Part shown: piece by piece, positions 15,657 to 57,942 of the stretch | How positions within the stretch are numbered: position 1 is the first letter of the stretch | Layout of the letters: every line of letters starts with the position of its first letter | Assembly (NCBI RefSeq): GCF_900111195.1 | Contig: NZ_FOGL01000002.1 | Location: 62,001-126,000, forward strand | DNA: 64,000 bases | Origin: Gracilibacillus ureilyticus | GTDB lineage: Bacteria; Bacillota; Bacilli; Bacillales; Amphibacillaceae | Direction of reading: 5' to 3' | Made by a program: the position numbers and the translations under genes | The notes under the pieces: model-generated | Database searches by the model: none | The model's input: the letters and a program-made list of their open reading frames with translations, nothing else | Told to the model about the DNA's origin: nothing

Positions 15657-15793
15657 AACAAGCCTCCTTGTCAATTTTAAATTTTCATAAAGTTAAAGAT
15701 TAAAAGTTACACTTTATCTATATGCAAGCAATTGGACAACCTTTCCACCTTTTGAAATCTTTAAAAGAAATCGTTTTAAGGTTCCTTATAAAA

Positions 15794-15810
15794 TTTACAT
15801 ATATTTTACG
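15794..15810 (+). promoter_or_regulatory. Possible partial PhoP box upstream of the phosphoesterase pair
   Basis: TTTACA (15794-15799) and TTTACG (15805-15810) are direct repeats at 11-base spacing, the period of PhoP boxes in B. subtilis. Only two clear repeats are present in an A+T-rich region, so chance is possible. Confidence 0.3.
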
Positions 15811-15878
15811 AAATCCCCTCAGTAGTCTAATAGATCATTGATAGAATGAAGTCAGATTATGTTAGAAAGGGAGATTCT

Positions 15879-38051: not shown

Positions 38052-38261
38052 ATCCACCACTCCCAGCCTTCATTATACCTCACCAGTCTGATGGATTTCC
38101 AACTTGATTATGGGGGAATTTTATCGATGGAATGTATTCTATTTCCATTTTGTGAATTTTTTCGAACAATCACCTGTAAAAATAAACTTTCCTCTCTTTT
38201 TCCTTTATAATAAAATGCAGGCGTTAATCCTATGATAAATATAATAGAAAAGAGGGATAAA

Positions 38262-41347: not shown

Positions 41348-41409
41348 TTTTCTTCATGGTACCAAGTTATCGTTTTACTTGTAGAACAAATAAGAAGGAG
41401 GAAGAGGAA

Positions 41410-42333
41410 ATGAAAAAAATTAAGTTGTTGTCATTACTGTCAGTGATTGGACTGGCACTGTTGTTAGCTGGTTGTGGAAATGATGCGAATGCTTCTGGTG
41501 GAGAAAATGAGAATGGCTGGCCTGAAAAAATTCGGTATGGAGTACTTCCGGGAGAAGAAGATAGTGAATTGTCACGGGCACATGAACTCTTTGTAAAAGA
41601 TATGTCAGAGGAACTGGGAATAGAAGTAGAGTTATTCCAGGGAGAAGATTACAACGCTGTCATCGAAGCAATGCGTTCAAAAAAGTTAGAGCTGGCTAGC
41701 TTTGGTCCTTTTTCCTACATTATTGCACAAGAGCGGAGTAATGCTGTTCCAATTGCAGTTAGGGCAATTAGTGAAGAAGACGCCACATATAACAGCTGGA
41801 TCGTAGTACCAGATGAGTCAGATGTGCAGTCATTAGAAGAATTAGAAGGAAAAAGCATTTTATTCGCGGATCCTGCTTCCACTTCAGGTCACTTATTCCC
41901 AAGAGGAATATTCATTGAAGAGCTAGGCATTACAAATGATGAAGTAGAGAGTTATTTTTCCAGTGTTTCTTTCTCCGGGAGTCATGATAACTCCATTTTA
42001 GCAATCGCTGCGGGTGATGCAGATGCAGCTGGTGTATGTTCAACCTGTGTGGAGCGAGCAGTGAAAGGCGGTTTAGTTTCTGAATCAGATTTCCGAATTA
42101 TTGCAGAATCTGATCCAATACCGTCAAGCCCGATAAGTTACCGAGGTGATTTACCAGAAGATTTAGTAGAAGCTATTAAAGAATTTATTTACAACTACGA
42201 CAATGAAGAGTTTTTTGAACAAGCAGGTGATAAAGACTCCCGGTATATACCTGTTGATGAAAGTAATTATGAAATTATCCGTAAAACAGCTGAGAGTTTA
42301 AATATGAGCCCGGAAGAATTATTAAGCCAATAA
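41410..42333 (+). CDS. phnD: Phosphonate ABC transporter substrate-binding lipoprotein
   Basis: ATG 41410 follows AAGGAGG; the frame upstream has no site. The 307-residue protein has a lipoprotein signal with lipobox L-A-G-C, Cys22 being the lipidated residue. The mature part is a PhnD-type binding protein: IRYGVLPGEEDSELSRAHELF near residue 40, VIEAMRSKKLELASFGPFSYIIA near 80, ILFADPASTSGHLFPR near 157 and AAGDADAAGVCSTC near 205. It catches phosphonates outside the membrane and passes them to PhnE. It is the first gene of the C-P lyase operon. Confidence 0.95.
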   Translation: MKKIKLLSLLSVIGLALLLAGCGNDANASGGENENGWPEKIRYGVLPGEEDSELSRAHELFVKDMSEELGIEVELFQGEDYNAVIEAMRSKKLELASFGPFSYIIAQERSNAVPIAVRAISEEDATYNSWIVVPDESDVQSLEELEGKSILFADPASTSGHLFPRGIFIEELGITNDEVESYFSSVSFSGSHDNSILAIAAGDADAAGVCSTCVERAVKGGLVSESDFRIIAESDPIPSSPISYRGDLPEDLVEAIKEFIYNYDNEEFFEQAGDKDSRYIPVDESNYEIIRKTAESLNMSPEELLSQ

Positions 42334-42348
42334 GAAAGGAGAAAAACC

Positions 42349-43119
42349 ATGAATCCAATTTTACAAGTGGAAAACCTGAAAAAAGTATATTCAGACGGAA
42401 CCGTAGCGTTAAATAATATTAACTTCGAGGTGCATCCAGGAGAGTTTATTGTTGTCATCGGACCAAGCGGTGCAGGAAAAAGTACTTTACTTCGCTGTAT
42501 CAATCGTCTTGTGGAACCGACAAGCGGTGACGTGGTTTTCAAAGGAAAGAAAATTAACAAAATCGGTGCAAGGCAAGTTAAACAAGTACGAAGAGAAATT
42601 GGCATGGTATTTCAAAACTTTAATTTAATTGATCGTTTAAGTGTGGTTAATAATGTCCTTCATGGCCGGCTCGGATATACCGGAACGATAAAAGGAGCGC
42701 TGGGACTGTTTTCGAAAAAGGACATCGCAGAAGCGGAGGAGATTTTAGAACGTGTAGGTCTTAGTAAGCAAAAATATAAAAGGGCTGATGAGTTAAGCGG
42801 TGGCCAGATGCAACGCGTGGGAATCTCGAGAGCCCTTGCACAAAGACCGCGTCTTATACTAGCCGATGAGCCAATCGCAAGTCTGGACCCCGCTTCGTCG
42901 AAAATCATTATGGATCATATTTTTACAATATGTAAAGAGGACAAGATTACAGCAATTGTGAACTTGCATCAGGTCGACGTTGCCATGAAATATGCGACAA
43001 GAATTATTGGTATTAAGAGTGGTGAGGTTATTTTTGATGGACAACCTTCTCATTTAACAAAGAATATCATTGATGAAATATACAGCAATGCAAAACAGCC
43101 GTTGGTGAATGCTCAATAA
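42349..43119 (+). CDS. phnC: Phosphonate ABC transporter ATP-binding protein
   Basis: A 256-residue ATPase. Walker A GPSGAGKSTLLRCINRL, Q-loop GMVFQNFNLIDRLS, signature LSGGQMQRVGISRALAQ and Walker B LILADEPIASLDP are all intact. The sequence VLHGRLGYT after the Q-loop is typical of PhnC. It powers import together with the two PhnE permeases. It starts 15 bases after phnD, with AAAGGAG. Confidence 0.95.
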   Translation: MNPILQVENLKKVYSDGTVALNNINFEVHPGEFIVVIGPSGAGKSTLLRCINRLVEPTSGDVVFKGKKINKIGARQVKQVRREIGMVFQNFNLIDRLSVVNNVLHGRLGYTGTIKGALGLFSKKDIAEAEEILERVGLSKQKYKRADELSGGQMQRVGISRALAQRPRLILADEPIASLDPASSKIIMDHIFTICKEDKITAIVNLHQVDVAMKYATRIIGIKSGEVIFDGQPSHLTKNIIDEIYSNAKQPLVNAQ

Positions 43120-43137
43120 AGTAGGAGGACGAGCAAA

Positions 43138-43923
43138 TTGAATATGATACAAGAGTTGAAAAAAAGAAAAAGGTTACAAATTTTACTCCTCTTCTTTTTT
43201 GTTACAGGACTAACAATATGGTCAGCAATAGGAACTAATTTTTCTTTCTATGAAGTGTTTTCAGGTTTTGGCCTGATTAGTAATTTCGTCTTTCTTGATT
43301 TATTGCCACCGGACATTGCTGCATCAGGGACATTGCTTGAAGCGATTCTTGAAACATTATATATGGGCTTTGTTGGTATGGTTGTTGGTGCATTAATTGC
43401 CTTGGTCCTTTCTTTTCTTGCGGCAAGTACCACAACCCCGCACCCGGTCGTACAGGTAATTGTCCGGGCATTTACTTCTATTATGAGGAACATTCCAGGA
43501 CTAATATGGGCTCTTATATTAGTGGCTTCATACGGAATCGGAGTAACCGTTGGGACATTGTCTCTAATTTTAGGATCTGTCGGATTCTTAACAAGGGTGT
43601 TTGCTGATACGCTGGAAGAAATCGATACGGGAAAAATCGAAGCATTGCATGCAACTGGCTCAAGTTATTTTCAAATATTGGCCCAAGGCGTTTTCCCGCA
43701 GTTCTTCCCGGGTTTCATTGCATGGTCTTTATATAACCTGGAGCTTAATATTCGGGCGTCAACTATTATAGGAATGGTTGGCGGGGGAGGAATCGGCTTT
43801 GCGATTCAAAAAGGAATTAAGCTGTTTCAATACAAAGAGGTTAGTATGGCGATTGTCTTGGTGCTAATTCTTATACTTTCAACAGAATTTCTGACAAGTA
43901 AGATAAGGGAGCGAATTATATGA
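43138..43923 (+). CDS. phnE: Phosphonate ABC transporter permease 1
   Basis: A 261-residue inner membrane permease with about six membrane segments and the coupling loop EALHATGSSYFQILAQGVFPQFFPG (EAA motif), which contacts PhnC. The start is TTG 43138, with AGGAGG 9 bases before it. Its end overlaps the next permease gene by four bases (ATGA), so the two are coupled and likely form a heterodimer. Confidence 0.94.
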   Translation: MNMIQELKKRKRLQILLLFFFVTGLTIWSAIGTNFSFYEVFSGFGLISNFVFLDLLPPDIAASGTLLEAILETLYMGFVGMVVGALIALVLSFLAASTTTPHPVVQVIVRAFTSIMRNIPGLIWALILVASYGIGVTVGTLSLILGSVGFLTRVFADTLEEIDTGKIEALHATGSSYFQILAQGVFPQFFPGFIAWSLYNLELNIRASTIIGMVGGGGIGFAIQKGIKLFQYKEVSMAIVLVLILILSTEFLTSKIRERII

Positions 43924-44741
43924 GCAGAGATGGAAATGTATATCCATTAAATGCACAGGAATCTGATAATGAAATAGCAATAAAGCCGAAGAAAGATCTT
44001 TTCACAAGAGGGGTATTTGCCTTCGGTGCAGTCTTTTTCCTGTTTTGCCTGTATCAATTAAATATCGACTACAGCAATTTACTTGCAGGAACAGTTGATT
44101 TCATTACCATGCTTGGGGAAATGTTCCCCCCAGATGTTAGTGAATGGAAATATGTTATCCCTGCAGCTATTGAATCCTTGCAAGTAGCAATCCTGGGAAC
44201 GGTTATTGCTGTTGTAATTTCCTTGGTATTAGCCTTTTTAGCGGCAGAGAATTTAGCACCTAATAATTTGGTTGCAAGCATTGTCAAAGGGTTTGCAACA
44301 TTAATGCGTGTCATTCCGACAATTATCTGGGCTTTAATTTTTATTGTTGCTGTTGGACTTGGGCCATTGCCGGGAGTATTAGCTATCGCTGTCCACAGCT
44401 TAGGGATGTTAATTAAAGTCTTCGCGCAATCAGTGGAAGAAATGGATGATGGAAAAATAGAGGCATTAAGAGCCTCAGGAGCTAATTGGATACAGATCAT
44501 TGCACAAGGGGTCATCCCTACTGTAGTTACTGCTTTACTGTCATGGACGATTTTACGTCTGGAAATTGATATCGGAGAGTCAACCATTCTCGGATTGGTA
44601 GGAGCAGGCGGTATTGGTTGGGAGTTAACAAGAGCGATGCGGAGTTATGACTTTAATGCTGCATTTTTTATTGCGATGGTCATTTTTGTAATGATTTTCT
44701 CTGTAGAAATGCTCAGTAACCGATTGAAATTAAAAGTGTAA
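43920..44741 (+). CDS. phnE: Phosphonate ABC transporter permease 2
   Basis: A 273-residue second PhnE-type permease with about six membrane segments and the loop EALRASGANWIQIIAQGVIPTVV. It is clearly related to the first permease (GKIEAL, IPxLIWAL-type segments). Two PhnE paralogues in tandem are common when the complex is a heterodimer. It is followed 16 bases later by an acyltransferase gene. Confidence 0.94.
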   Translation: MSRDGNVYPLNAQESDNEIAIKPKKDLFTRGVFAFGAVFFLFCLYQLNIDYSNLLAGTVDFITMLGEMFPPDVSEWKYVIPAAIESLQVAILGTVIAVVISLVLAFLAAENLAPNNLVASIVKGFATLMRVIPTIIWALIFIVAVGLGPLPGVLAIAVHSLGMLIKVFAQSVEEMDDGKIEALRASGANWIQIIAQGVIPTVVTALLSWTILRLEIDIGESTILGLVGAGGIGWELTRAMRSYDFNAAFFIAMVIFVMIFSVEMLSNRLKLKV

Positions 44742-44757
44742 AACAGGAGAGGTATGA

Positions 44758-45432
44758 ATGAATCAGATAACGAATCAGAAAAAATTATCCGAGACACCGA
44801 CTGTTCATCCGTCAGCTAAAGTAACTCGCTCGGAAATTGGCAAGTGGACTGACATTGGTGCAAATTCCAAAATTGTTGAATCAACGATTGGTGACTACAG
44901 TTATACAGCGGGAGATGTGCAAATAATTTATGCTTCTGTTGGGAAATTTTGCTCTATTGCTTCCCATGTCCGGATTAATCCAGGTAATCACCCGACATGG
45001 CGTGTCACACAGCATCATGCGACATATAGAAGAGTTCAGTACGGTTTTGGTGAAGAAGAAGATCATGAGTTTTTTGAATGGCGGAAGAATCATCCTGTAA
45101 CAATTGGGCATGATGTGTGGATTGGCCATAATGCAGTAATTATGCCAGGAGTCACAGTAGGTAATGGAGCTGTAATTGGAGCCGGGGCAATTGTCACAAA
45201 AGATGTGGAGCCATATTCGATAGTTGCTGGGGTCCCGGCAAAAAAGATTAAAGAGCGGTTTCCAAGAACTATTGCTGAACAATTAGATGAAACAGCCTGG
45301 TGGGACTGGTCACGCGAAGAGCTGGAAGAAAGGTTTCCAGATTTAAATGATCTGGATTTGTTTTTAGCTAGATATGGTAAAGGAACAGGGGGTAATGACA
45401 ATAACAATCGAGAAAGAACTTCGGATTATTGA
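44758..45432 (+). CDS. Hexapeptide-repeat acyltransferase of phosphonate operons
   Basis: A 224-residue left-handed beta-helix acyltransferase, related to DapH and chloramphenicol acetyltransferases (xenobiotic acyltransferase type). Hexapeptide turns are visible at [31 protein letters not shown] and again at [49 protein letters not shown]. Homologues of this form occur in many C-P lyase operons, where they could acetylate amino-phosphonates, the job of PhnO in Escherichia. The acceptor is an inference. The end of the gene overlaps the phnF start by 38 bases. Confidence 0.85.
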
Positions 45433-46117
45433 TGACCTCATGGAACAAATCATTTCGAAACAATTTGATTATGGTGAAAAACTGCCGTCAGAGAATGAAT
45501 TGGCAGATAAATACAGGGTACCGAGAACGACAGTGAGGCGTAGTTTATCTAAACTGGAGGAACGCGGGTTCATTTATTCACAAAGAGGTAAAGGCAGGTA
45601 TTTAAAAAATGAATCTTTTCAAGTGGAACTGAATTTAACAGGGAAATCTAGTTTTACCGAGAAGATGAGACAATCCGGTCATCAATTAGTTACTCAAAAT
45701 GTAGGGTGCGAAAAAATTAAATATGATAAGCAAATATATGAACGGCTTAAGGCGGCAAGGGAGGATACGGTTTATCAAATCAGTCGTCTCCGTTATATCC
45801 ATGGGGAGCCAATTGCCATACATAACTCTTATATTAATGAAAGGCAATTTCCAGATATCGCTAAAGTGGGACCGGAAATTGTATCAATGTATTCCTTTTA
45901 CCGCCAGCTTGGTTATCACGATTTTACTAATATTAACAGTTTATTAAGTGTAACTTTCCCAACCTTAAACGAACAGACAGTACTGTTATGTAAAAGTATG
46001 GAGCCATTAATTATGATTGAGAGCACATGTACGGATACAGAGACGGCAAAAGTGCTGGAAACAACCAAAGTTCTTTACCGCAGTGACAAGTTCAAATATA
46101 ACCTTTCCTCAAGATAA
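45395..46117 (+). CDS. phnF: PhnF-type GntR/UTRA transcriptional regulator
   Basis: ATG 45395 is chosen since AGGGGG lies just before it; it lies inside the acyltransferase gene. The 240-residue protein has a GntR winged helix ([47 protein letters not shown]) and a UTRA ligand-binding domain (about 80-235) with [20 protein letters not shown]. PhnF represses phosphonate genes; the ligand may be a phosphonate or C-P lyase intermediate. Being within the operon, it would act by feedback. Its operator is not obvious. Confidence 0.9.
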
Positions 46118-46213
46118 TCTATTGTAAATCTGCTTAACATAATATTTACAATTTTCTAAAACACAGCAACTTGGCAACAAGATATGCTTGATTTATAAGG
46201 AGGTTACAGAGAT

Positions 46214-46636
46214 ATGAACAGAAAAAGAAGAACTGAAATATTAATTCAGAATGGTGGGAATTTAGCGAAGGAATTAGCGGAAGTCATCAAAAAAAAGTAT
46301 GAATATCAGCCAATTTCAGAGCCGGAGTATGGTTTAACGATGATTAAGATGCGGGAATCTGCGAAAAAGTCATTATTTTATATCGGGGAAGTCATGGTGA
46401 CAGAGGCGAAAGTGGAAATTAATCAGTCAATTGGGATCGGGATTGTAATTGGTATGGAAGACGAACTGGCACAGCATTTAGCAATCATTGATGCAGCCTA
46501 TCGGGCGAACCTGCCAGAAACAGTTGAATGGGAACCGGTCTTGGAAACAACGGCAAAGCAGTTAGAAGAACAACGTGCAAGGGAACAAAGGGTAATATTC
46601 GAAACAAAAGTAGATTTTGAAACAATGGAAGTCTAG
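46214..46636 (+). CDS. phnG: C-P lyase subunit PhnG
   Basis: A 140-residue subunit of the PhnGHIJ core complex. The start (RRTEILIQNGGNLAKELAEVI) and the central TMIKMRESAKKSLFYIGEVMVTEAKVEI follow the family, with the G-x-G-x-V-x-G segment GIGIVIGMEDELA near residue 75. The length fits (E. coli about 150). It starts after a 96-base gap behind phnF, with AAGGAGG. Confidence 0.93.
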   Translation: MNRKRRTEILIQNGGNLAKELAEVIKKKYEYQPISEPEYGLTMIKMRESAKKSLFYIGEVMVTEAKVEINQSIGIGIVIGMEDELAQHLAIIDAAYRANLPETVEWEPVLETTAKQLEEQRAREQRVIFETKVDFETMEV

Positions 46637-46670
46637 TATGCCGATAATATCAGTCTGTTGAGGTGAGATG

Positions 46671-47273
46671 ATGGTAATTGATCAAGTACACGATTTACAG
46701 AAAGTATACCGCAAAATTTTACACAGTATGTCTAGGCCTGGAACAATCACTTCATTCGAGCAAAAAGCTGATTCGATTAGTAAATCATTACCTTGTAATG
46801 AAGCAGTTTTTCTTTGTGCCTTAACATTATTTGATGCGGAAGTAACTTTCCATATCATTGGAGAACAAGAGAAAAGTGAAAGGTTAGCAGAACTTATTTC
46901 TTCATATACCATGTCAAATAAAGCTCCACATGACCAGGCGGATTTTATAATCGCCCTTCAAGGGAATTTAACGAAGGAAATTGAGAAAGCCATGAATGTT
47001 TGTAAATCAGGGGATTTAATTAATCCGCAAAATTCAGCGACATGGATTTTAGAGAGCGTACTTATATCCAACCAGTCTGGCGTTACGTTAACAGGTCCCG
47101 GTATTGAACGGGAAGCACTATTGCAAACAGGTTATGATGAACATTTCTGGATGGCAAGAAATCTTAGGACAAAAGAATATCCATTAGGTATTGACTGTAT
47201 TTTCGCTGATTTTTCCAATCAGATTGCTTGTGTGCCACGTACCACAAAAATGGTTGCAACGGAGGTGATTTAA
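46671..47273 (+). CDS. phnH: C-P lyase subunit PhnH
   Basis: A PhnH subunit of about 200 residues. The family pattern is visible in VYRKILHSMSRPGTITSFEQ near residue 12, LCALTLFDAEVTFHI near 44 and GVTLTGPGIEREALL near 140. PhnH binds PhnJ in the core complex; its fold is related to PLP transferases but without cofactor. Two ATG codons stand in tandem; 46671 has the better distance to GAGGTG. It ends directly before phnI. Confidence 0.93.
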   Translation: MVIDQVHDLQKVYRKILHSMSRPGTITSFEQKADSISKSLPCNEAVFLCALTLFDAEVTFHIIGEQEKSERLAELISSYTMSNKAPHDQADFIIALQGNLTKEIEKAMNVCKSGDLINPQNSATWILESVLISNQSGVTLTGPGIEREALLQTGYDEHFWMARNLRTKEYPLGIDCIFADFSNQIACVPRTTKMVATEVI

Positions 47274-48389
47274 ATGGGTTATGTAGCGGTTAAGGGCGGT
47301 ACAAAAGCGATTGAAGCTTCTATCGAACGGCTCAAATATGAACGGTTAAAGGGTGAGGAAGTACTAGAAATTAAAACCATTTTGGCAACAATGCGCAGTT
47401 TAGTCGATCAAGTGATGTCTGAAGCAAGTTTATACGCGCCATTTCTAGCAGCACTTGCAATAAAACAGGCTGGCGGAAGTATGGAGGAAGCTGTTTTTTT
47501 GATGAGAGCACACAGATCAACACTGCCACGTCATTACTATAGTTTACCTGTTGACACAGAGTCTATGTTTGTTGAAAGGAGGGTATCTGCCAGTTTCAAA
47601 GACATTCCGGGTGGACAGCTTCTCGGAGCAACCAACGATTACACACATAGATTACTCGATTTCGAATTAATTGAGGAAAATACAGATGCCAATCATCAGT
47701 GGCTAAGAGATTATGAGGCAAAGCTAGCAGCAAATATGGCGCAGGAACAAGAAATACAGTACTTTCCGAAAGTGGTTGATTATTTACGTGCGGAAGGGTT
47801 ATTCGACTATTATCCGGAAGATAACGATCCACCAAAGGATGTAACCAAAGAAAGTATTCAATTCCCGACAACACGGAGCGAAAGGCTGCAAGTATTAACA
47901 AGAGGTCAGACAGGAGCTGTGACTGCATTAGGCTATGCATCTCTCCGTGGCTATGGCCAGGTTCATCCTACAATTGGAGAAGTGAGAGTAGGCAATGTCC
48001 CTATTCACGTCCAGCATCCGTATGAGAATAACAATGACGAAGAAAATGCTTTTTATATTGGGGAGATAAAAATAACAGAAGTAGAGTCATTTGTTCCCGT
48101 CCATGTGAAAAAAGATAATAAGGAAGAACTTGAGTTCGAAATTGGTTATGGAATAAGCTATGGCCAAAATGAGACAAAAGCGATTGCAATGAGCATCCTT
48201 GACCAATGTTTAGAAAACCCGCACGGAGAATTCCCAACACATGACGAAGAGTTCGTTTTATTACATATCGATTCAGTGGAAGCAACTGGATTCATTTCCC
48301 ATTTGAAGTTGCCACATTATGTAACTTTCCAATCAAAATTAGACAGCATTCGTCAGGTCAAGAAAGGAGCGGAAACAGGTGAAAACTAA
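47274..48389 (+). CDS. phnI: C-P lyase subunit PhnI
   Basis: A 371-residue PhnI. It opens MGYVAVKGGTKAIEASIERL, and RGQTGAVTALGYASLRGYGQ-HPTIGEVRVG is the central conserved part (about 205-240). With PhnG, H and L, PhnI exchanges the adenine of ATP for a phosphonate to give ribose-phosphonate triphosphate; PhnI alone has nucleosidase activity. It overlaps the phnJ start by 11 bases. Confidence 0.95.
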   Translation: MGYVAVKGGTKAIEASIERLKYERLKGEEVLEIKTILATMRSLVDQVMSEASLYAPFLAALAIKQAGGSMEEAVFLMRAHRSTLPRHYYSLPVDTESMFVERRVSASFKDIPGGQLLGATNDYTHRLLDFELIEENTDANHQWLRDYEAKLAANMAQEQEIQYFPKVVDYLRAEGLFDYYPEDNDPPKDVTKESIQFPTTRSERLQVLTRGQTGAVTALGYASLRGYGQVHPTIGEVRVGNVPIHVQHPYENNNDEENAFYIGEIKITEVESFVPVHVKKDNKEELEFEIGYGISYGQNETKAIAMSILDQCLENPHGEFPTHDEEFVLLHIDSVEATGFISHLKLPHYVTFQSKLDSIRQVKKGAETGEN

Positions 48390-49245
48390 AACTCATTTTG
48401 CATTTTTTGATGAAGGATCGAAAAAGGAGATTCGCAGGGCAACCTTGAAAGCAGTGGCAATTCCCGGTTACCAGGTACCCTTTGCTTCAAGGGAGATGCC
48501 GATTGCCAGAGGCTGGGGAACGGGTGGTTTACAGTTAACTCTATCTTTGATTGGGAAAAACGATGTACTAAAAGTGATTGATCAGGGAGCGGATGAATCT
48601 GTAAATGCCGTCAGTATTAAGAAATTAGTTCAGCATACAACAGGAGTTCCATTAACAGAAAGTACTACGGATGCTACGATCATTCAATCCCGCCACCGGA
48701 TTCCGGAACTGCCGTTAAAAAGTGACCAGATTCTTGTCCTGCAAGTACCGAATCCTGAGCCACTGCGTAAAGTAGATGCAAGAGAATACATGACAAAAAG
48801 AATGCATGCAGAGGATGATTACAGTGGTGCATGGCTGATTCTGTTCGAGCAGATTATGAGATATGGAAAAATGACAACAGGTGCTGCCCATCCTGTCTAT
48901 GTCAATGGACGCTATGTGATGGCACCAAGCCCTATTCCGCGATTTGATAATCCTAAGATGCATCAATCAGAGGCACTCATTCTGTTAGGTGCAGGTAGAG
49001 AAAAGAAGATCTATGCCGTGCCGCCATACACGAATGTCGAGTCATTAGGTTTTGAAGATTATCCCTTTACTGTGGAGTCCTTTGAAGGAGAACAATGCCA
49101 TTTGTGTGGTGCAACAGAGGTTTTCCTTGATGAGTTAATTGATCCGGATTCTTGTGAGCGAACCTATCAGTGTAATGACACTAGCCATTGTATCGAGCGG
49201 TTAAACAGTAAGGAAGCAGAGGAGGTGGAGAAAAGTTATGCATGA
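48379..49245 (+). CDS. phnJ: C-P lyase catalytic subunit PhnJ (radical SAM)
   Basis: The 288-residue catalytic subunit that breaks the carbon-phosphorus bond of 5-phosphoribosyl 1-phosphonate, releasing the alkane and forming a cyclic phosphate. The cluster motif CX2CX21C is intact: Cys240, Cys243 and Cys265 in QCHLCGATEVFLDEL...YQCND, and Cys271 is in the place of the active-site thiyl Cys. An extra Cys259 lies inside the spacer. The start is GTG behind AAAGGAG within the end of phnI. It overlaps phnK by 8 bases. Confidence 0.97.
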   Translation: MKTKTHFAFFDEGSKKEIRRATLKAVAIPGYQVPFASREMPIARGWGTGGLQLTLSLIGKNDVLKVIDQGADESVNAVSIKKLVQHTTGVPLTESTTDATIIQSRHRIPELPLKSDQILVLQVPNPEPLRKVDAREYMTKRMHAEDDYSGAWLILFEQIMRYGKMTTGAAHPVYVNGRYVMAPSPIPRFDNPKMHQSEALILLGAGREKKIYAVPPYTNVESLGFEDYPFTVESFEGEQCHLCGATEVFLDELIDPDSCERTYQCNDTSHCIERLNSKEAEEVEKSYA

Positions 49246-50077
49246 AACTCCGATTTTACGAGTAAGAAATCTGGAGAAGCAATTTGGACAAGGGTGTCCT
49301 GATTGTAAAGATAAAGAAAGCAGAAGCCTGGAAAAAAACTATTGCTCTGCCTGCGGGACGGTTTACGCTGTACGTGATGTCTCCTTTGATTTATTTCCTG
49401 GCGAGGTGTTAGGAATTGTTGGAGAAAGTGGCAGCGGCAAGTCCACTATGCTGCAAGGTTTATATTTCGATGCAGAAATAACTGGTGGTGAAGTATACAT
49501 TGATCACCCTGCTGTTTTAGATAAAAACGTATTGGAGTTATCTTCCCAACAGAAAAGATACATACGCAATTATCTTTATGGTATGGTCTATCAGAATCCC
49601 GTACACGGTTTGAAAATGAAATTTTCTTCGGTCGGAAACATTGCAGAGAAAATGATTGCAGCCGGTGGAAGGAATGTAAGCAGTATTGAAGCGAGAAGCA
49701 AAACTTTACTAGAAAAAGTCCACATCCCTTTGAGACGAATGAAGGAGGAACCGCGTAATTTCTCAGGTGGTATGCAACAACGTGTACAGATCGCAAAAGC
49801 ATTATCCAATAATCCGCCCATTCTGTTTTTAGATGAAGTAACTACAGGGTTAGATTTATCTGTACAGGCTAGTGTACTTGACTTAATCAAGCAAATTCAG
49901 CGAGATCTCCACATTAGTATGATTGTCGTGTCACATGACCTGGCTGTTATCCGAATGCTCGCAGATCGCTCTATTGTTATGTTAAATGGGACGATTATCG
50001 AGAAGGGATTAACAGATCAGATTCTTGAAGACCCGCAACATGAATATACCCAGCAATTAGTTTATTCATTATTATAG
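49238..50077 (+). CDS. phnK: C-P lyase ABC-type subunit PhnK with Cys4 insertion
   Basis: A 279-residue ABC ATPase that binds the core complex through PhnJ. Walker A GESGSGKSTMLQGL, Q-loop YQNPVHGLKMKFS, signature FSGGMQQRVQIAKAL and Walker B ILFLDEVTTGLD are present. Between the first strand and Walker A there is an insertion with two Cys pairs, GCPDC and YCSACG, 12 residues apart, which looks like a small zinc ribbon and is not in the E. coli protein as I know it. The start lies inside the end of phnJ. Confidence 0.94.
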   Translation: MHETPILRVRNLEKQFGQGCPDCKDKESRSLEKNYCSACGTVYAVRDVSFDLFPGEVLGIVGESGSGKSTMLQGLYFDAEITGGEVYIDHPAVLDKNVLELSSQQKRYIRNYLYGMVYQNPVHGLKMKFSSVGNIAEKMIAAGGRNVSSIEARSKTLLEKVHIPLRRMKEEPRNFSGGMQQRVQIAKALSNNPPILFLDEVTTGLDLSVQASVLDLIKQIQRDLHISMIVVSHDLAVIRMLADRSIVMLNGTIIEKGLTDQILEDPQHEYTQQLVYSLL

Positions 50078-50090
50078 GAGGTCGGTCATT

Positions 50091-51272
50091 TTGTACATTA
50101 TCCATAATGGGAAAATCATAACAGAAGATTCGATATTAACAGGTCATGCCGTAGTAGTTGATGGAGAGACAATTCATGCATTAATTGAGGAGGATGAAAT
50201 AAATCAATTCCCGGAAGCTGAATTGATTGATGCAAGAGGTGGTTATGTTTCCCCAGGATTTATCGACATACATTCAGATTATATAGAAACAGTAGCCTCC
50301 CCCCGTCCGAACAGTGTGATGGATTTTAATCTTAGTCTCCGGGAGGCGGAGAAGATTTTAATCGGACATGGAATTACTACAATGTTTCATTCGTTATCTT
50401 TTTACCGGAAAGAAAAAATTACTCGTAAACATGTTCGTTATCCAGACAATATGCAGCGAATGATTGACCAGATTGATGAAACTCATCATAAACTGCATAT
50501 GATTCGGCATCGATTACATGCCCGCTTTGAGATGGATAATATTGATGGCATTGATCAACTGATTGATAATATTCGGTCAGACAAAGTTCATCTTGTTTCA
50601 TTTATGGATCATACACCGGGTCAAGGCCAATATCGAAATTTGGAAATATACCGGCAAAATATTAAAGGTCATCGCAATATCTCAGATGAAGAAGTAAATG
50701 TACTGCTTGCTGAGCGTAAAAGCACGGAGCTGATCACAATAGAAAAGATAACAGAAGTTGCAGAACTCGCCTTATCGAAGGGGATTGCCATTGCGAGCCA
50801 TGATGATGATAATGTGAGTAAGCTTGAGCTGGTCAAATCATATGGTACCACAATTAGTGAGTTCCCAGTCGCATTGGAAATTGCCAAAAAGGCGAAGGAA
50901 CATGGACTATATACAATTGTAGGAGCACCGAATGTGTTACTTGGTGGTTCTCATTCTGGGAATCTTTCTGCAGCAGAAGCGATTGACCATGGTTACGCAG
51001 ATATATTGTGCAGTGATTATTACCCTGCAGCGTTACTGCATGCTATTTTTCACCTTCATGATAAACAAGAGCAAGACTTACACAAAATGTTTATGATGGT
51101 AACTTTGAATCCTGCCAAAGCAGTAAGTATGGATGAAGAGATTGGTTCAATAAAAATCGGCAAGAAGGCGGATCTCCTTGTAATTGAACGAATGGATGAC
51201 GGATACCCAATGCTGACCGCGACAATGGTAAATGGTCAATTAATGACAACGACAAATTATCGTTCGAAATAA
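50091..51272 (+). CDS. phnM: Alpha-D-ribose 1-phosphonate 5-triphosphate diphosphatase PhnM
   Basis: A 393-residue amidohydrolase-fold enzyme that removes diphosphate from ribose 1-phosphonate 5-triphosphate, to give the substrate of PhnJ. Metal ligands are seen in PGFIDIHSDYIE near residue 57, SFMDHTPGQGQYRN near 167, IASHDDDN near 235 and CSDYYPAALL near 308. The end GKKADLLVI is standard. The start is TTG behind AGGAGG. In E. coli phnL stands between phnK and phnM; here the order is K-M-L. Confidence 0.95.
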   Translation: MYIIHNGKIITEDSILTGHAVVVDGETIHALIEEDEINQFPEAELIDARGGYVSPGFIDIHSDYIETVASPRPNSVMDFNLSLREAEKILIGHGITTMFHSLSFYRKEKITRKHVRYPDNMQRMIDQIDETHHKLHMIRHRLHARFEMDNIDGIDQLIDNIRSDKVHLVSFMDHTPGQGQYRNLEIYRQNIKGHRNISDEEVNVLLAERKSTELITIEKITEVAELALSKGIAIASHDDDNVSKLELVKSYGTTISEFPVALEIAKKAKEHGLYTIVGAPNVLLGGSHSGNLSAAEAIDHGYADILCSDYYPAALLHAIFHLHDKQEQDLHKMFMMVTLNPAKAVSMDEEIGSIKIGKKADLLVIERMDDGYPMLTATMVNGQLMTTTNYRSK

Positions 51273-51293
51273 ATGATGAGGAGGTGCAAAATA

Positions 51294-52016
51294 ATGACAA
51301 TCCTTGAAATTAAAAATTTTGGAAAAGCTTTTACTATCCACCATCTTGATAAGACGCTTCCTGCTGTAAATAACATACACTTTTCAATCGATGCGGGAGA
51401 GTTTATCGGAATAATTGGAAAGAGCGGCAGTGGGAAATCGACAATATTGAAAAGTATTTATCGTACGTACTTGCCTCACACAGGCGAAATTCTCTACAAC
51501 TCAGATCGGTTCGGTCAAATAGATCTAGCGAAAGCTACCGAAAGACAAGTGATTTCACTAAGGAAATATGAAATAGGGTATGTCTCCCAATTTTTAAACG
51601 TAATGCCAAGAACAACGTGCCGCCAGCTCGTTCAAAATGCTCTATTAGAAATGGGTGAACCTGGAGAGACTGCGATGATTGAAGCTGAGAAAGCATTAAC
51701 CCATTTTGAAATGGATCCAAAACTTTGGGACAGTTATCCAAATACTTTCTCTGGCGGTGAGAAGCTTCGTCTAAATATAGCGATGGCAACAGTTAAGAAA
51801 CCGAGGCTGTTACTGCTTGATGAACCTACTGCAAGTCTTGATCAACAATCGAAAATGAAAGTCCGTGAGATAATTGAGAAGTTAAAACAGCAAGGGACAA
51901 CATTAGTTGGTATCTTCCATGATATCGAGTTTATGGAAGGATTGTGTGACAAAGTATATGAAATGAAAACAGGGCAGGTTATCTCTGCCAGAGAAGAGGT
52001 GGCATATGAAAGCTGA
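51294..52016 (+). CDS. phnL: C-P lyase ABC-type subunit PhnL
   Basis: A 240-residue ABC ATPase. ATG 51294 follows GAGGAGG, which lies inside the longer frame. Walker A GKSGSGKSTILKSIYRTYLPHTG, SQFLNVMPRTTCRQLV (the PhnL-type Q region), signature FSGGEKLRLNIAMA and Walker B LLLDEPTASLD are intact. PhnL joins PhnGHI in the first step and also contacts PhnK. The stop overlaps the next gene by 11 bases. Confidence 0.94.
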   Translation: MTILEIKNFGKAFTIHHLDKTLPAVNNIHFSIDAGEFIGIIGKSGSGKSTILKSIYRTYLPHTGEILYNSDRFGQIDLAKATERQVISLRKYEIGYVSQFLNVMPRTTCRQLVQNALLEMGEPGETAMIEAEKALTHFEMDPKLWDSYPNTFSGGEKLRLNIAMATVKKPRLLLLDEPTASLDQQSKMKVREIIEKLKQQGTTLVGIFHDIEFMEGLCDKVYEMKTGQVISAREEVAYES

Positions 52017-52818
52017 TCTTCATCTGCATAGTCGTTATTCTGATGGCTCTCATACGGTGGAGGAGGTTTTAAAGCAAGCATCTAATGCCGGATTAACACA
52101 TGTCAGTTTTGTAGATCATGATACAGTGGCTGGTTGGCAGGAAATTGAGGTAATGGCGAATAAGTACTGTATCCAAGCGATTCCTGGTATCGAGATTTCC
52201 GCCTATGATTTTGAACGTGGACGTAAAGTGCATATATTAGGCTACGACTTTCAAAAAGAGGCACCGCATATAAAGAAACTTTGCCAGCCATTACTTGATC
52301 GGAGGCAGGAGAATTCTCTCTGGCAAATTGAACAAATTCAGTCATTGGGTTACTCGCTGGATACTGATCTGATCGCATATGTCGCAAAACCTTCTTCCAC
52401 CATTTATAAACAGCATATTATGGGGCAATTAACAGAAGAAAATTATTCTTCGCAAACATATAAAGAGCTCTATCGACAATTGTTTAAAGGAGATGGAGTA
52501 GCAGCAAGGGATATCAAATATGTTGATGCGTTTGATGCCGTCCGTGCAATTAAGGCAGATGGCGGGATCCCTGTTGTTGCACATCCAGGCCAGCTGGATT
52601 CCTATGAATTAATTCCTGAGTTAGTAGAAACAGGCCTTGCCGGAATCGAGAAAATTCACCCAGACCATACAAAAGAAGACCATAGAAAAGTTGGAGAATT
52701 AGCAGAACGTTTCCACCTGATCCAAACAGGAGGAACAGATTTTCACGGTGCATATGGAATCGATATTTCTCCAGGTGATTTAGTTAGTCCGTCCATACCA
52801 GTATTTATGAAAGGATGA
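52006..52818 (+). CDS. PHP-domain phosphoesterase, PhnPP-like cyclic phosphodiesterase
   Basis: A 270-residue PHP-family metalloenzyme. The metal residues are in ADLHLHSRYSDGSHT (HxH and D), VDHDT, PGIEISAYD, HILGYD, VVAHPGQ and GTDFHG, the full set. PhnJ produces 5-phosphoribosyl 1,2-cyclic phosphate, which E. coli opens with PhnP, a beta-lactamase-fold enzyme. A PHP protein from an Eggerthella C-P lyase operon hydrolyses the same cyclic phosphate. No phnP or phnN is present here, so this gene is best read as the replacement. Overlap with phnL and with the next gene shows strict co-translation. Confidence 0.85.
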   Translation: MKADLHLHSRYSDGSHTVEEVLKQASNAGLTHVSFVDHDTVAGWQEIEVMANKYCIQAIPGIEISAYDFERGRKVHILGYDFQKEAPHIKKLCQPLLDRRQENSLWQIEQIQSLGYSLDTDLIAYVAKPSSTIYKQHIMGQLTEENYSSQTYKELYRQLFKGDGVAARDIKYVDAFDAVRAIKADGGIPVVAHPGQLDSYELIPELVETGLAGIEKIHPDHTKEDHRKVGELAERFHLIQTGGTDFHGAYGIDISPGDLVSPSIPVFMKG

Positions 52819-53207
52819 AAAGGTTGGCACATATTCATATTGGGTTAAATGTGAAAGATTTAAAGGAGAGTTTGGATTTTTACAGAAGAATGCTTGGAGC
52901 TGAACCAGTAAAAGTGAAAGAGGACTATGTGAAATATCTTGTGAACAATCCTAATTTAAATCTGACGTTATCCGAAAAAAAGAATGTAGAAGGCAATCAG
53001 ATTAACCATTTAGGCATTCAAGTAGAAAGCTATGAAGAGATGTTGTCACATAAGGAGAGAATTGAAAAGGAAGGTTTCTTCGCAAGGGAAGAAATGGATA
53101 CGACTTGTTGCTATGCGGTGCAGGATAAGTTCTGGGTGACTGACCCAGATGGAATCGAATGGGAATACTTTTATACAAAAGCAGATGCAGAGGTTCATAC
53201 CATTTAA
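52815..53207 (+). CDS. arsI: ArsI/CadI-type VOC metalloenzyme, putative C-As lyase
   Basis: A 130-residue vicinal-oxygen-chelate protein with two beta-alpha-beta-beta-beta repeats: HIHIGLNVKDLKESLDFYRRMLGAEP and NHLGIQVESYEEMLSHKERIEKEG. The segment FAREEMDTTCCYAVQDKFW-V is the signature of ArsI, in which the adjacent Cys pair binds trivalent methyl- or phenyl-arsenite next to the iron, set by His and Glu (His in NHLG, Glu in GIEWEYFYTK). ArsI uses oxygen to split C-As bonds. It overlaps the PHP gene by four bases (ATGA), so it is the last gene of the C-P lyase operon and not part of an ars operon. CadI-like metal binding is the alternative. Confidence 0.8.
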   Translation: MKRLAHIHIGLNVKDLKESLDFYRRMLGAEPVKVKEDYVKYLVNNPNLNLTLSEKKNVEGNQINHLGIQVESYEEMLSHKERIEKEGFFAREEMDTTCCYAVQDKFWVTDPDGIEWEYFYTKADAEVHTI

Positions 53208-53515: not shown

Positions 53516-53563
53516 AAAAATTCTCATGAACATTTAAAGCATGGATTGTTCATGAGAATTTTT
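53516..53563. terminator. Strong 17-bp hairpin after the phn operon
   Basis: AAAAATTCTCATGAACA (53516-53532) and TGTTCATGAGAATTTTT (53547-53563) are exact complements and are followed by T-rich sequence. It is the first strong terminator after the ArsI-like gene, and lies between two inverted repeat copies. Confidence 0.85.
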
Positions 53564-53867: not shown

Positions 53868-54878
53868 TCATCCGCTATATGCTTCTTCCCCAATATAATA
53901 TAATTCCACCAGCTTTTGGCTGATATTGCGAATATCCTTTTCCAATGCAAGCTTGTACCCATTTTCGGTTAGATCTTCTGCTTGTTGTTCGGCTATCTTT
54001 ACAATCTGTTCCTTAAATGAATGAAACTGCTTCGCTTTGTAAACATGGACATTATCTGTTAACCATTGTTCATAAATAGGTATATCACGCACTAACACAG
54101 GGATCTTTGCAGCTAAGGCTTCGAGTAAGACGATTCCTTCTGTTTCTTCGTGTGTGAGAAAAAGGAACAAGTCGCTGCCACAATAGGCATCCCGCAGTTC
54201 TTCACGGCTAATAAAACCTGGAAAATGCAAATTAGGAATCTCCTGTTTCATTGCTTTTTTAATTTTTGCCGGCACAAGATTCATACTTGTATGACCAAAC
54301 CAGTAAAATGTATATTCAGGCAACTGTTTCGCTAACTCGATAAAATCATCGATACCCTTTCGTTCCATAAAGTGTCCGACAGAAATGATCACTTTTTCGT
54401 TTGGATCAATTTTATATTTTTTGCGGAACCGTTCTCCTGCCGCTTTATTTCTCTGAAAGAAAGATGTATCAATTCCATTAGATAGGCTGAATACGGGACG
54501 ATGTAATCCATATGTTTCAAGGATTGACTTTGAATATTCGGTCGGTGTAATAATAATATCGCCCTTGTTGTAACAATAGGAAATCCACTTTTTGAATAAC
54601 GGTGCAAGCATATTGGAACCGATAAAGGAATTGCGGAAATCTTCCATCGTGGAATGAGCATAATAGACGACTTTCTTGCCATTTCTTTTCGCCCACCAGC
54701 TCATGAAAAGAGAGTTTGGGAAAATTGTATTTAAATGCACGATGTCGAAATCCTCTTTACGATCGGTAGTATGAGCAATATTTAAATGCTCCAGAGCTTT
54801 TTTCTGATGACGTATTGCCTGCCCGATCCCGCTTTTATTTACAAGATTTAGTGATCCTGCGTACAATAATACTTTCAT
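53868..54878 (-). CDS. GT4 glycosyltransferase, diglucosyl-diacylglycerol synthase-like
   Basis: ATG 54878 follows AGGGGGAA; the longer frame overlaps the upstream gene and lacks a site. The 336-residue GT-B enzyme has the nucleotide-sugar motif EETEGIVLLEALAAKIPVL (E-x7-E) and SVGHFMERKGIDDFIELAK. The N-terminal half, with SLNLVNKSGIGQAIRHQKKAL and HSTMEDFRNSFIGSNMLAPLFKKW, resembles the enzyme that adds the second glucose to glucosyl-diacylglycerol in lactic bacteria. It acts at the membrane face. The operon also holds a first-glucose-type enzyme, which supports this reading. Confidence 0.8.
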   Translation of the reverse strand: MKVLLYAGSLNLVNKSGIGQAIRHQKKALEHLNIAHTTDRKEDFDIVHLNTIFPNSLFMSWWAKRNGKKVVYYAHSTMEDFRNSFIGSNMLAPLFKKWISYCYNKGDIIITPTEYSKSILETYGLHRPVFSLSNGIDTSFFQRNKAAGERFRKKYKIDPNEKVIISVGHFMERKGIDDFIELAKQLPEYTFYWFGHTSMNLVPAKIKKAMKQEIPNLHFPGFISREELRDAYCGSDLFLFLTHEETEGIVLLEALAAKIPVLVRDIPIYEQWLTDNVHVYKAKQFHSFKEQIVKIAEQQAEDLTENGYKLALEKDIRNISQKLVELYYIGEEAYSG

Positions 54879-54919
54879 TCTTGATTCCCCCTGTATGAAT
54901 ATAACTGAACGGATCCCCG

Positions 54920-55531
54920 CTAAGCAAAAAAAGAAACAATATAACGGAAGATTAACTCTAATCCGAAGCTGTATATAATAATCGGCAGCGGCTTTCCAAC
55001 TAGAATAATTATCGTGAATTTTGTTAATGTCATTTTTGTCGTGCCTGCTAAATAGCATAGGAAGTCATCTGGTGCAATTGGTGAAAAAATCATCAGGGTG
55101 AAAAAAAGTCCAAACCTACGATCATCGACCCAGCTGCGATACTTTTTCCTCAATTTGGGCTTGAACAGGAATAACAAAACAGTGTCTCCATACTTTTTTG
55201 CAATTAGGAACGCGGCGATGGAACCTAAACAAATCCCGACATAATTATAGATCAGACCCATCACAGGTCCGAAAATTAAAATACCGCCGAGACAGCCGAT
55301 CCCACCAGGCACAATTGGGAAAATAACCTGAATAATCTGGAATAATACAAAAAATACAGGTGCCCAGACACCAAACTGATTGAGAAATGCTTCTAATGCT
55401 GCTTCTGAGTAAAACAGTTCACTTTGGATTCCATAAATGAAAAAAAGGATACAACCAATAATACTAATGGTTGTCACCGTATTCCAAACCACTTTTATTA
55501 ATCTTTGTTTTTCGATCTTTGTGACGGTCAT
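54920..55531 (-). CDS. TVP38/TMEM64 (VTT) family membrane protein
   Basis: A 203-residue membrane protein with about five hydrophobic segments and the VTT (SNARE-associated/DedA-like) core: GGIGCLGGILIFGPVMGLIYNYVGICLGSIAAFLIAKKYG near residues 76-115, and FSPIAPDDFLCYLAGTTKMT near 148. DedA/TVP38 proteins are thought to move lipids between leaflets. It lies between two glycosyltransferase genes and overlaps the first by four bases, so it may flip the glycolipid they make. Confidence 0.85.
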   Translation of the reverse strand: MTVTKIEKQRLIKVVWNTVTTISIIGCILFFIYGIQSELFYSEAALEAFLNQFGVWAPVFFVLFQIIQVIFPIVPGGIGCLGGILIFGPVMGLIYNYVGICLGSIAAFLIAKKYGDTVLLFLFKPKLRKKYRSWVDDRRFGLFFTLMIFSPIAPDDFLCYLAGTTKMTLTKFTIIILVGKPLPIIIYSFGLELIFRYIVSFFA

Positions 55532-56802: not shown

Positions 56803-56938
56803 TTAACAGTATATTAATTGAATTTTAAAAAAAATAAAAATTTACTAATAGCCCTTGGCATATACTAAAATGTGTGATTAGTTATATATAATTCTACTAA
56901 AATTTGATCCTATTTCCATCGAATTTACAAAATTTACA
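56803..56938. promoter_or_regulatory. Possible PhoP-box-like repeats in the divergent region
   Basis: TTAACA (56803), TTAATT (56814) and TTTAAA (56824) stand at 10-11 base spacing, and two TTTACA copies stand at 56924 and 56933. The region between the glycolipid operon and the phosphodiesterase gene is very A+T rich, so chance similarity is quite possible. Confidence 0.25.
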
Positions 56939-57030
56939 TAAATTTTTTATTTTGGTAATTTGATTTCCTAGTATATATAGACGTATTTTTATGGCAAATA
57001 GTTTCATATTTTTTTTTGCAGGTGATAAAA

Positions 57031-57942
57031 ATGAAAATTAAATTATGTGTTTCTGCTGTTTTTCTTGTGATTGTCAGTTATTTGGTCATCTGGATTATGC
57101 CGCAAAATAATGTGATTGAGAAGGCAGCATTCAGTCATAATTCCTCGGACTCGCTACTATCAGCCGACCGAATTGTAAATATTGCGCACAGAGGAGCCTC
57201 CGGATATGCTCCTGAACACACTGTGGAGGCATACGAATTGGGAGAGAAGATGGGAGCAGACTATATTGAAATAGATTTGCAGATGACAAAAGATGGTGAG
57301 TTAGTTGCAATGCATGATCCGGAAGTAGACCGTACTACAGACAATACCGGATTAGTCAGTGATTTCACCTTGGCGGAGCTGAAGGAATTAGATGCCGGCT
57401 CATGGTTTAATGAGGACTACCCGGACAAAGTCCGTAACAGCTTTAGTGGTCTCACTATACCTGCACTTCGGGAAGTATTCGAACATTTTGGATCGGAAGC
57501 TAATTACTATATTGAAATAAAACAGCCTGATGATTCACCGGGAATGGCCACATTATTAATTGAAACATTGAAAGAGTTTGAGTTGATACCGGCAGAACGG
57601 GAGGGTGCAATAATTATCCAATCGTTCAGCAGCGAGAGTTTGCAGGAAATTCATCTGCTTGAACCTGATCTACCACTAATCCAGTTAATCAGCTACACAC
57701 AGCCTGCTGTTATTTCCAGTGGTGACTTAAATAAGATAAAGAAATATGCGACAGGTGTTGGTGTCAATTTCAAGTATATGAATGAATCGTTTGTTCGGGA
57801 TGTCCGTGAAGCGGGCTTACTGCTCCATGCATATACGGTTAATGAAAAAGAAGATATGAAGCGGGTTTTGGAATGGGGAGTGACAGGAATATTCACCAAC
57901 TATCCGGATAGACTAAATGAATTGCTGGGAAAATCATTCTGA
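57031..57942 (+). CDS. Exported or membrane-anchored glycerophosphodiester phosphodiesterase
   Basis: ATG 57031 follows AGGTGAT. The 303-residue product has an N-terminal hydrophobic segment (VSAVFLVIVSYLVIWIMP) acting as signal or anchor, then a GDPD TIM barrel: IAHRGASGYAPEHTVEAYELG (catalytic His), DYIEIDLQMTKDGELVAMHDPEVDRTT (second His and metal Glu/Asp), IEIKQPD, and WGVTGIFTNYPDRL at the end. It cuts glycerophosphodiesters, from phospholipids or teichoic acid, to glycerol 3-phosphate and an alcohol outside the membrane. It is divergent from the glycolipid operon. GlpQ of B. subtilis, a relative, belongs to the phosphate-starvation regulon. Confidence 0.93.
   Translation: MKIKLCVSAVFLVIVSYLVIWIMPQNNVIEKAAFSHNSSDSLLSADRIVNIAHRGASGYAPEHTVEAYELGEKMGADYIEIDLQMTKDGELVAMHDPEVDRTTDNTGLVSDFTLAELKELDAGSWFNEDYPDKVRNSFSGLTIPALREVFEHFGSEANYYIEIKQPDDSPGMATLLIETLKEFELIPAEREGAIIIQSFSSESLQEIHLLEPDLPLIQLISYTQPAVISSGDLNKIKKYATGVGVNFKYMNESFVRDVREAGLLLHAYTVNEKEDMKRVLEWGVTGIFTNYPDRLNELLGKSF

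Follow-up and report, generated by a model that had tools for sequence, protein, structure and literature searches.

Composition of the C-P lyase locus

The analyzed window (the whole stretch of 64,000 nt of Gracilibacillus ureilyticus DNA) contains, according to ORF and profile searches, a locus at positions 41356-53207 in which all genes are on the plus strand, in the order phnD-C-E-E-hexapeptide transferase-phnF-phnG-H-I-J-K-M-L-PHP-arsI. The transport part starts with a gene for a phnD-like phosphonate/phosphate substrate-binding protein (41356-42333; TIGR01098, 252.9 bits, cut-off 112; 237.2 bits with the PhnD model TIGR03431, cut-off 261.1), followed by genes for a phnC-like ABC ATPase (42349-43119) and two phnE-like permeases (43138-43923 and 43920-44741). 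Then come a phosphonate-associated hexapeptide-repeat transferase (44758-45432; TIGR03308, 294 bits, cut-off 201.65) and a phnF-like GntR/UTRA regulator (45374-46117; PF00392 and PF07702). The latter is named mainly from its place, its score with the PhnF model TIGR02325 being 97.6 bits at a cut-off of 156.8; two other GntR models score slightly higher, likewise below their own cut-offs.

The core consists of phnG (46214-46636; TIGR03293, 127.6 bits, cut-off 89), phnH (46668-47273; PF05845, 145.6 bits), phnI (47274-48389), phnJ encoding the C-P lyase subunit (48379-49245; PF06007, 462 bits), phnK (49238-50077, positioned after phnJ; best match TIGR02323, 215.5 bits, cut-off 302.85), phnM (50091-51272; TIGR02318, 440.3 bits, cut-off 390.55) and phnL (51273-52016; TIGR02324, 261.9 bits, cut-off 256.3). 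The presence of all seven genes phnG-H-I-J-K-L-M together identifies a C-P lyase operon, with phnI recognized by its place before phnJ and its conserved synteny with relatives. The same kind of evidence, place and synteny rather than profile scores, underlies the names of phnC and both phnE genes, while PhnK, PhnF, PhnD and the PHP protein score under the cut-offs of their own equivalog models. The gene for this PHP-domain protein, a PhnPP-like phosphoribosyl cyclic phosphate diphosphodiesterase (52006-52818; PF02811; best match NF041661, 323 bits, cut-off 500), precedes arsI (52815-53207), which encodes an ArsI/CadI-family non-heme Fe(II) VOC protein, a predicted C-As lyase.

The same-strand gene order ends at 53207, and the next gene with a recognized domain (53868-55058, glycosyltransferase) is convergent, so that arsI is indeed the final gene of the C-P lyase operon, as proposed in the initial annotation. 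Between these two genes a perfect inverted repeat of 16 bases with a T-rich run after it (53516-53563, no strand assigned) was noticed by eye; it is a possible terminator that is absent from the output of the terminator scan, the loop limit of which is 8.

The set and order of phn genes in the window are those of related Bacillales operons, which comprise phnF-GHIJKML and the PHP gene; the difference lies in what follows. In 11 loci of relatives (L083-L093), phnDCEE comes after the PHP gene in seven and no phn gene does so in three, while the PHP gene of the remaining one is located elsewhere; in none of the 11 does arsI follow it, unlike in the window and in Saliterribacillus persicus.

The terminal gene encodes an ArsI-type protein

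The ORF at 52815-53207 (130 aa) encodes the segments DTTCCYA, FAREEMD and DKFWVTDPDG, from which ArsI identity was initially proposed. Its product scores 163.9 bits with NF041414 (cut-off 116), an NCBIfam model that covers ArsI and CadI jointly and does not separate the two. The fosfomycin resistance models (FosX, FosB and FosA) yield 20-24 bits at cut-offs of 171-280, placing the protein outside the Fos families. Six PDB sequences match at E below 1e-20, all of them 5c4p-type entries labeled C-As lyase in the fold search. The AlphaFold model, built from 24 aligned sequences, has a mean pLDDT of 89.6, and the PDB fold search with this model returns C-As lyase chains at all ranks from 1 to 15, the best being 5v0f (TMq 0.88, rmsd 0.9).

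A 2025 review (PMC12607644) gives the ArsI metal ligands, in Thermomonospora curvata numbering, as Gln8, His65 and Glu117, with cysteines 98 and 99 binding the trivalent arsenical and Tyr38, Gln103 and Lys105 needed for catalysis. With roles assigned from this source, the Fe(II) ligand positions of the window protein are filled by H8, H65 and E117, and Cys98, Cys99, Tyr38, Gln103 and Lys105 are all kept. Both the Cys98/Cys99 pair and H65 are found in all 78 aligned rows, and Tyr38, Gln103 and Lys105 are invariant in 24 of 24 aligned sequences. Family, predicted fold and catalytic residues are common to the window protein, the Bacillus ArsI proteins (YqcK, Bacillus sp. MD1) and T. curvata ArsI (PDB 5c4p series), the exception being position 8, where the window protein has His, as in Bacillus, and T. 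curvata has Gln.

The proposed identity would have been contradicted by loss of metal-binding or Cys-pair residues or by placement outside ArsI/CadI; the protein passes every ArsI sequence and fold test run, so no such contradiction was found, and the solved structures closest to it are those of ArsI C-As lyases. Judged from sequence and model, it looks like an ordinary ArsI, and the new part is its wiring.

The C-terminal Cys pair, present in 65 of the 78 rows, is missing from the window protein and S. persicus ArsI. Its loss was considered as a mark of phn-linked ArsI and rejected, since ArsI proteins from Alkalicoccobacillus ars operons also lack the pair, and L036, L125 and L126 keep it.

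Start codon of arsI

According to the initial annotation, arsI overlaps the preceding gene by four bases. This is correct for the ORF opened by ATG 52815, which does overlap the PHP stop codon (ATGA), but the overlap is doubtful for the gene itself, because TTG 52824 is a likelier start. Met occurs at the codon equivalent to TTG 52824 in 18 of 23 aligned relatives and one codon later in four, with one row beginning further in; in S. persicus this codon is an ATG located eight bases after AGGAGG, with a second ATG two codons upstream. Given these alignments, translation probably starts at TTG 52824, at a distance of five bases from the stop codon of the PHP gene, and the overlap is probably an artefact of choosing the first ATG. 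Whichever start is right, arsI is packed tightly against the PHP gene.

PhoP-box-like arrays

Between phnF and phnG there is an array of four TTHACA-like hexamers with 11-base spacing (46123-46161, plus strand). It matches 20 of 24 positions of the B. subtilis PhoP-box consensus (TTHACA); in two runs, 0 and 1 of 500 shuffles were as good. The stretch before phnG was also analyzed in 16 loci of relatives (L093, where the gap is 19 bases, was left out). Twelve of them, including S. persicus and the genomes G273, G163 and G505 discussed below, reach at most 2 of 500 shuffles, and the other four give 4 (L156), 7 (L092), 10 (L091) and 18 (L157) of 500. Two further stretches of the window show no significant PhoP box: before phnD, 264 of 500 shuffles were as good, and between the hexapeptide-transferase gene and phnF, 373 of 500.

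The count of PhoP-like hexamer pairs over the whole window is near chance (93 against 80.7 expected, with 6 of 100 shuffles as high), and therefore only 11-base arrays before genes were used. The promoter scan across the operon is likewise little above chance (58 found against 49.0 expected, sd 5.7). The prediction is that PhoP activates the putative phnGHIJKML-PHP-arsI transcription unit at low phosphate.

Arsenic genes in the genome and at other arsI loci

In the 4.07-Mb assembly (99.99% complete), NF041414 exceeds its cut-off only once, the second match having 20.5 bits. An arsR-arsB-arsC operon without arsI is located on another contig; its ArsB scores 735 bits, the ACR3 profile search of the genome gave only matches below cut-off, and ArsB is the likely exporter of arsenite. 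No reductase for pentavalent methylarsenicals was recognized within the phn-arsI operon.

The ORFs neighboring arsI in the window include no ArsR, and the gene is thus away from the ars-operon place that is usual for, though not defining of, this family. That this place is usual had been noted initially and agrees with our count, in which an ArsR-type gene lies directly upstream on the same strand in 33 of the 40 ArsI loci compared with that of the window (L012 is identical with L075, and further duplicates possibly remain among the 40); ArsR identity was taken from one representative (NF033788, 90.9 bits, cut-off 55). Such an ArsR is absent from L012 and L075 (S. persicus), L036 (Geomicrobium halophilum), L031, L032 (contig end), L042 (Mycobacterium) and L074. 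In B. subtilis, as described in PMC12607644, arsI belongs to an arsenic-induced arsR-arsI-arsB-arsC operon, whereas the window arsI ends a C-P lyase operon, has no adjoining ArsR, and encodes no C-terminal Cys pair.

Two relatives with unlinked ArsI carry an ArsB gene on the same contig as phnJ, at distances of about 23 and 27 kb (G035 contig C23 and G144 contig C1, respectively). The separate arsRBC operons of G505 and G273 are adjoined by genes for a small ArsD-like protein and an ATPase resembling ArsA, both recognized by eye (L134 8473-10605; L135 8613-10803).

Linkage of ArsI and PhnJ in related genomes

In the GTDB family of the window genome, ArsI is present in 10 and PhnJ in 43 of 159 genomes, and seven have both, though ArsI and PhnJ lie together only in the window genome (G000) and S. 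persicus (G119). The other 41 of the 43 PhnJ genomes have no ArsI near the phn cluster, since 36 lack it and five carry it elsewhere. In the order sample ArsI occurs in 74 of 397 genomes. The PhnJ test covered 72 of them (the remaining two, G000 and G031, having been tested earlier) and was positive for seven, with linkage in G163, G273 and G505 and none in G300, G348, G349 and G373. The class sample has ArsI in 85 of 398 genomes; four of the 80 new ones tested contain PhnJ, none of the four within 10 kb and the nearest at about 60 kb.

The three surveys yield 18 genomes with both genes, five of them with the genes within 6 kb, against 0.06 expected under random placement, a model that ignores insertion hotspots, which phn and ars genes may share. 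Without the window genome and its sister, 3 of 16 are linked against 0.05 expected; taking in addition one genome per linked genus leaves 2 of 15 (P for two or more is about 0.001). The family of G505 (f35, 29 genomes) was followed up because G505 is linked, and yielded one unlinked genome, G901, and two looser linked cases, G903 and G911. As the family had been picked for its linked member, these two were left out of the chance figure; with the f35 cases included, 7 of 21 genomes have the genes within 11 kb against 0.13 expected. Among the plasmid matches listed (60 of 113 ArsI and 60 of 215 PhnJ records), inspection by eye found no shared accession.

The coupling is therefore optional: 41 of 43 PhnJ genomes of the family do without it, and so do all four new genomes of the class that bear both genes. 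As for the terminal VOC gene, for which a search of Bacillaceae C-P lyase operons was initially suggested, it is found in S. persicus, and linkage recurs above chance, but it is not a general feature of these operons.

Gene orders, phylogeny and conservation

The arrangements of linked genes differ. The arsI gene is the last one of the phn operon in the window and S. persicus, while in G273 and G163 an arsR-arsI pair lies two genes ahead of a PHP-phnGHIJKML cluster, and in G505 arsR-arsI is located head to head with phnF at a distance of 67 bases. In Geomicrobium halophilum (G903), two phnD genes and a GDPD gene precede arsI, which lies about 10.7 kb beyond phnJ with no ArsR beside it, and in G911 the distance between phnJ and a complete arsRIBC operon is about 9 kb. 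The linked loci do not have a shared promoter as their common theme, as ArsI keeps its own ArsR in G505 and in the pair G273 and G163 (genus g51).

The tree was built from 66 rows, mostly Bacillales proteins, remaining of the 78 after removal of the truncated copy L037 and of identical rows; the T. curvata row of the alignment is the crystal construct rather than the full protein. On this tree the phn-linked label (six rows) requires four changes, all forced by well-supported branches and counted without telling gains from losses. That the gene orders differ favors separate gains of linkage. The window and S. persicus proteins are sisters (96/81), and G911 ArsI, which is outside the tree, is 89% identical to that of Geomicrobium halophilum.

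Between the window and S. persicus, arsI shows 76% identity, with dN of 0.15 and dS of about 2.1 (near saturation), and its dN falls in the range of 13 phn-locus genes of the same pair (0.09-0.31, phnD being outside the comparison). By these rates, arsI is evolving under purifying selection. The gene that follows it differs, being the convergent glycosyltransferase gene in the window and a lipoate ligase gene in S. persicus.

Possible function of the phn-linked ArsI

On balance, we incline to the explanation that a genuine ArsI has moved from arsenic (ArsR) control to phosphate-starvation control, where it clears arsonates let in by phosphonate importers. It is based on the family, residues and predicted fold of the protein, its operon position with no adjoining ArsR, the separate arsRBC operon, the recurrent linkage and the purifying selection. 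In this scheme arsI would have been released from ArsR to form the terminal cistron of a phnGHIJKML-PHP transcription unit, which PhoP would turn on when phosphate is scarce. At low phosphate, the high-affinity phosphonate/phosphate importers would be made as well, and these, PhnCDE among them, presumably could not fully exclude methylarsonate, a structural mimic of methylphosphonate, or other arsonates. An imported pentavalent arsonate would be reduced inside the cell to the trivalent form and cleared by the co-made ArsI. As an Fe(II)-dependent lyase of the dioxygenase type, this enzyme would bind the trivalent organoarsenical (methylarsenite, for example) at Cys98-Cys99, activate O2 at H8/H65/E117 and split the C-As bond. 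The arsenite so produced would leave the cell via ArsB of the separate arsRBC operon.

The recurrent pairing of ArsI with C-P lyase suggests that arsenic detoxification is coupled to the scavenging of phosphonates in some bacteria. A broader version of this idea, which we put forward only tentatively, is that in some Bacillales ArsI serves as a standing phosphate-starvation safeguard, made with C-P lyase under PhoP before arsenic is sensed, and that this coupling has been independently selected several times. To our knowledge, the route by which methylarsonate enters bacteria is poorly known; the recurrent link points to a phosphonate importer as such a route. It also points to cells for which poisoning by organoarsenicals is a price of phosphonate scavenging, and which anticipate it. 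If this is true, arsenic demethylation by such bacteria depends on phosphorus supply.

It is also conceivable, if rather unlikely, that a genuine ArsI gene landed by chance behind a strong operon and has been kept there only for its expression, with no function in phosphonate metabolism. Such an origin would fit the varied surroundings of arsR-arsI pairs in these genomes, the separation of ArsI and phn in most relatives having both, and the ordinary ars operon to which the nearby genes of G911 belong. It accounts less well for linkage that recurs in separate places of the tree, above chance even without the window genome and its sister, and for a gene that stays put in two genera while its downstream neighbor differs and its dN remains low against a saturated dS.

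FosX, a VOC-fold enzyme, offers a precedent for another kind of alternative, namely an ArsI scaffold retooled to act on a phosphonate or a side product of the C-P lyase pathway, just as enzymes of the FosX type act on fosfomycin. In Mesorhizobium loti, according to PMC6122793 and PMC12413358, fosX lies in a phosphonate (phn) operon, a detoxification-type gene placed much like arsI in the window. The window arsI moreover has no adjoining ArsR, and its product, like that of S. persicus, is devoid of the C-terminal Cys pair. We nevertheless regard retooling as improbable: FosX opens the fosfomycin epoxide, whereas the window protein contains the Cys pair that binds As(III), keeps every residue to which a role in As(III) binding or C-As cleavage is ascribed, and scores far below all Fos cut-offs, and the Cys tail is likewise missing from ArsI proteins of Alkalicoccobacillus ars operons. 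Least probable is a catabolic ArsI that serves the use of natural or man-made arsonates, imported by the phosphonate system, as carbon sources: the position in a nutrient-scavenging operon and the rise of ATP upon exposure of Pelagibacter to methylated arsenicals (reported in PMC6426599) fit it, but none of the operon genes was recognized as one for utilizing the carbon set free, and the product would be arsenite, which is generally known to be toxic.

Returning to ArsI as a safeguard during phosphonate uptake, looser associations of arsenic and phosphorus genes have been described. In arsenite-oxidase islands, according to PMC3834237, arsenic genes adjoin phn/pst phosphorus uptake operons, phn transport operons being present in some of the islands. 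The likeness is limited, since these islands center on aioBA and contain transporters, and the main text of that paper uses none of the terms C-P lyase, organoarsenical and methylarson. In Pelagibacter, dimethylarsenate increases phnD transcripts about two-fold and promiscuous C-P lyase activity has been suggested (PMC6426599), in contrast to the window, where a dedicated predicted C-As lyase sits with C-P lyase. In the open-licence literature searched, no published report of this arrangement of arsI and C-P lyase genes was found.

Other genes of the window

Several genes around the locus deserve mention. Between the phn operon and a GDPD gene, the minus-strand segment 53868-56730 encodes two family-4 glycosyltransferases flanking a VTT-domain (DedA-like) membrane protein, possibly involved in membrane-lipid remodelling under phosphate starvation. 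The GDPD-family glycerophosphodiester phosphodiesterase (57016-57942, plus strand; PF03009) is preceded by a PhoP-box-like array (56913-56951; 8 of 500 shuffles as good), and its homolog (55% identical) lies between phnD and arsI in Geomicrobium halophilum. TTHACA-like repeats with 11-base spacing are also found at 15783-15810, directly before a 669-aa ORF (15846-17855, plus strand), which may be another target of PhoP.

About 3 kb upstream of phnD there is an ORF at 36888-38060 (minus strand) with related ORFs (MNKKDIA.IRKQFK...) in two congeners, where they are located directly downstream of the PHP gene, with no arsI there (L089 3814-4980 and L091 3851-5017). Finally, a chromate-transporter-like gene recognized by eye (24383-25573, plus strand) resembles genes flanking the phn clusters of Geomicrobium halophilum and G911 (L157 98-1288, minus strand; L156 13906-14955, plus strand).
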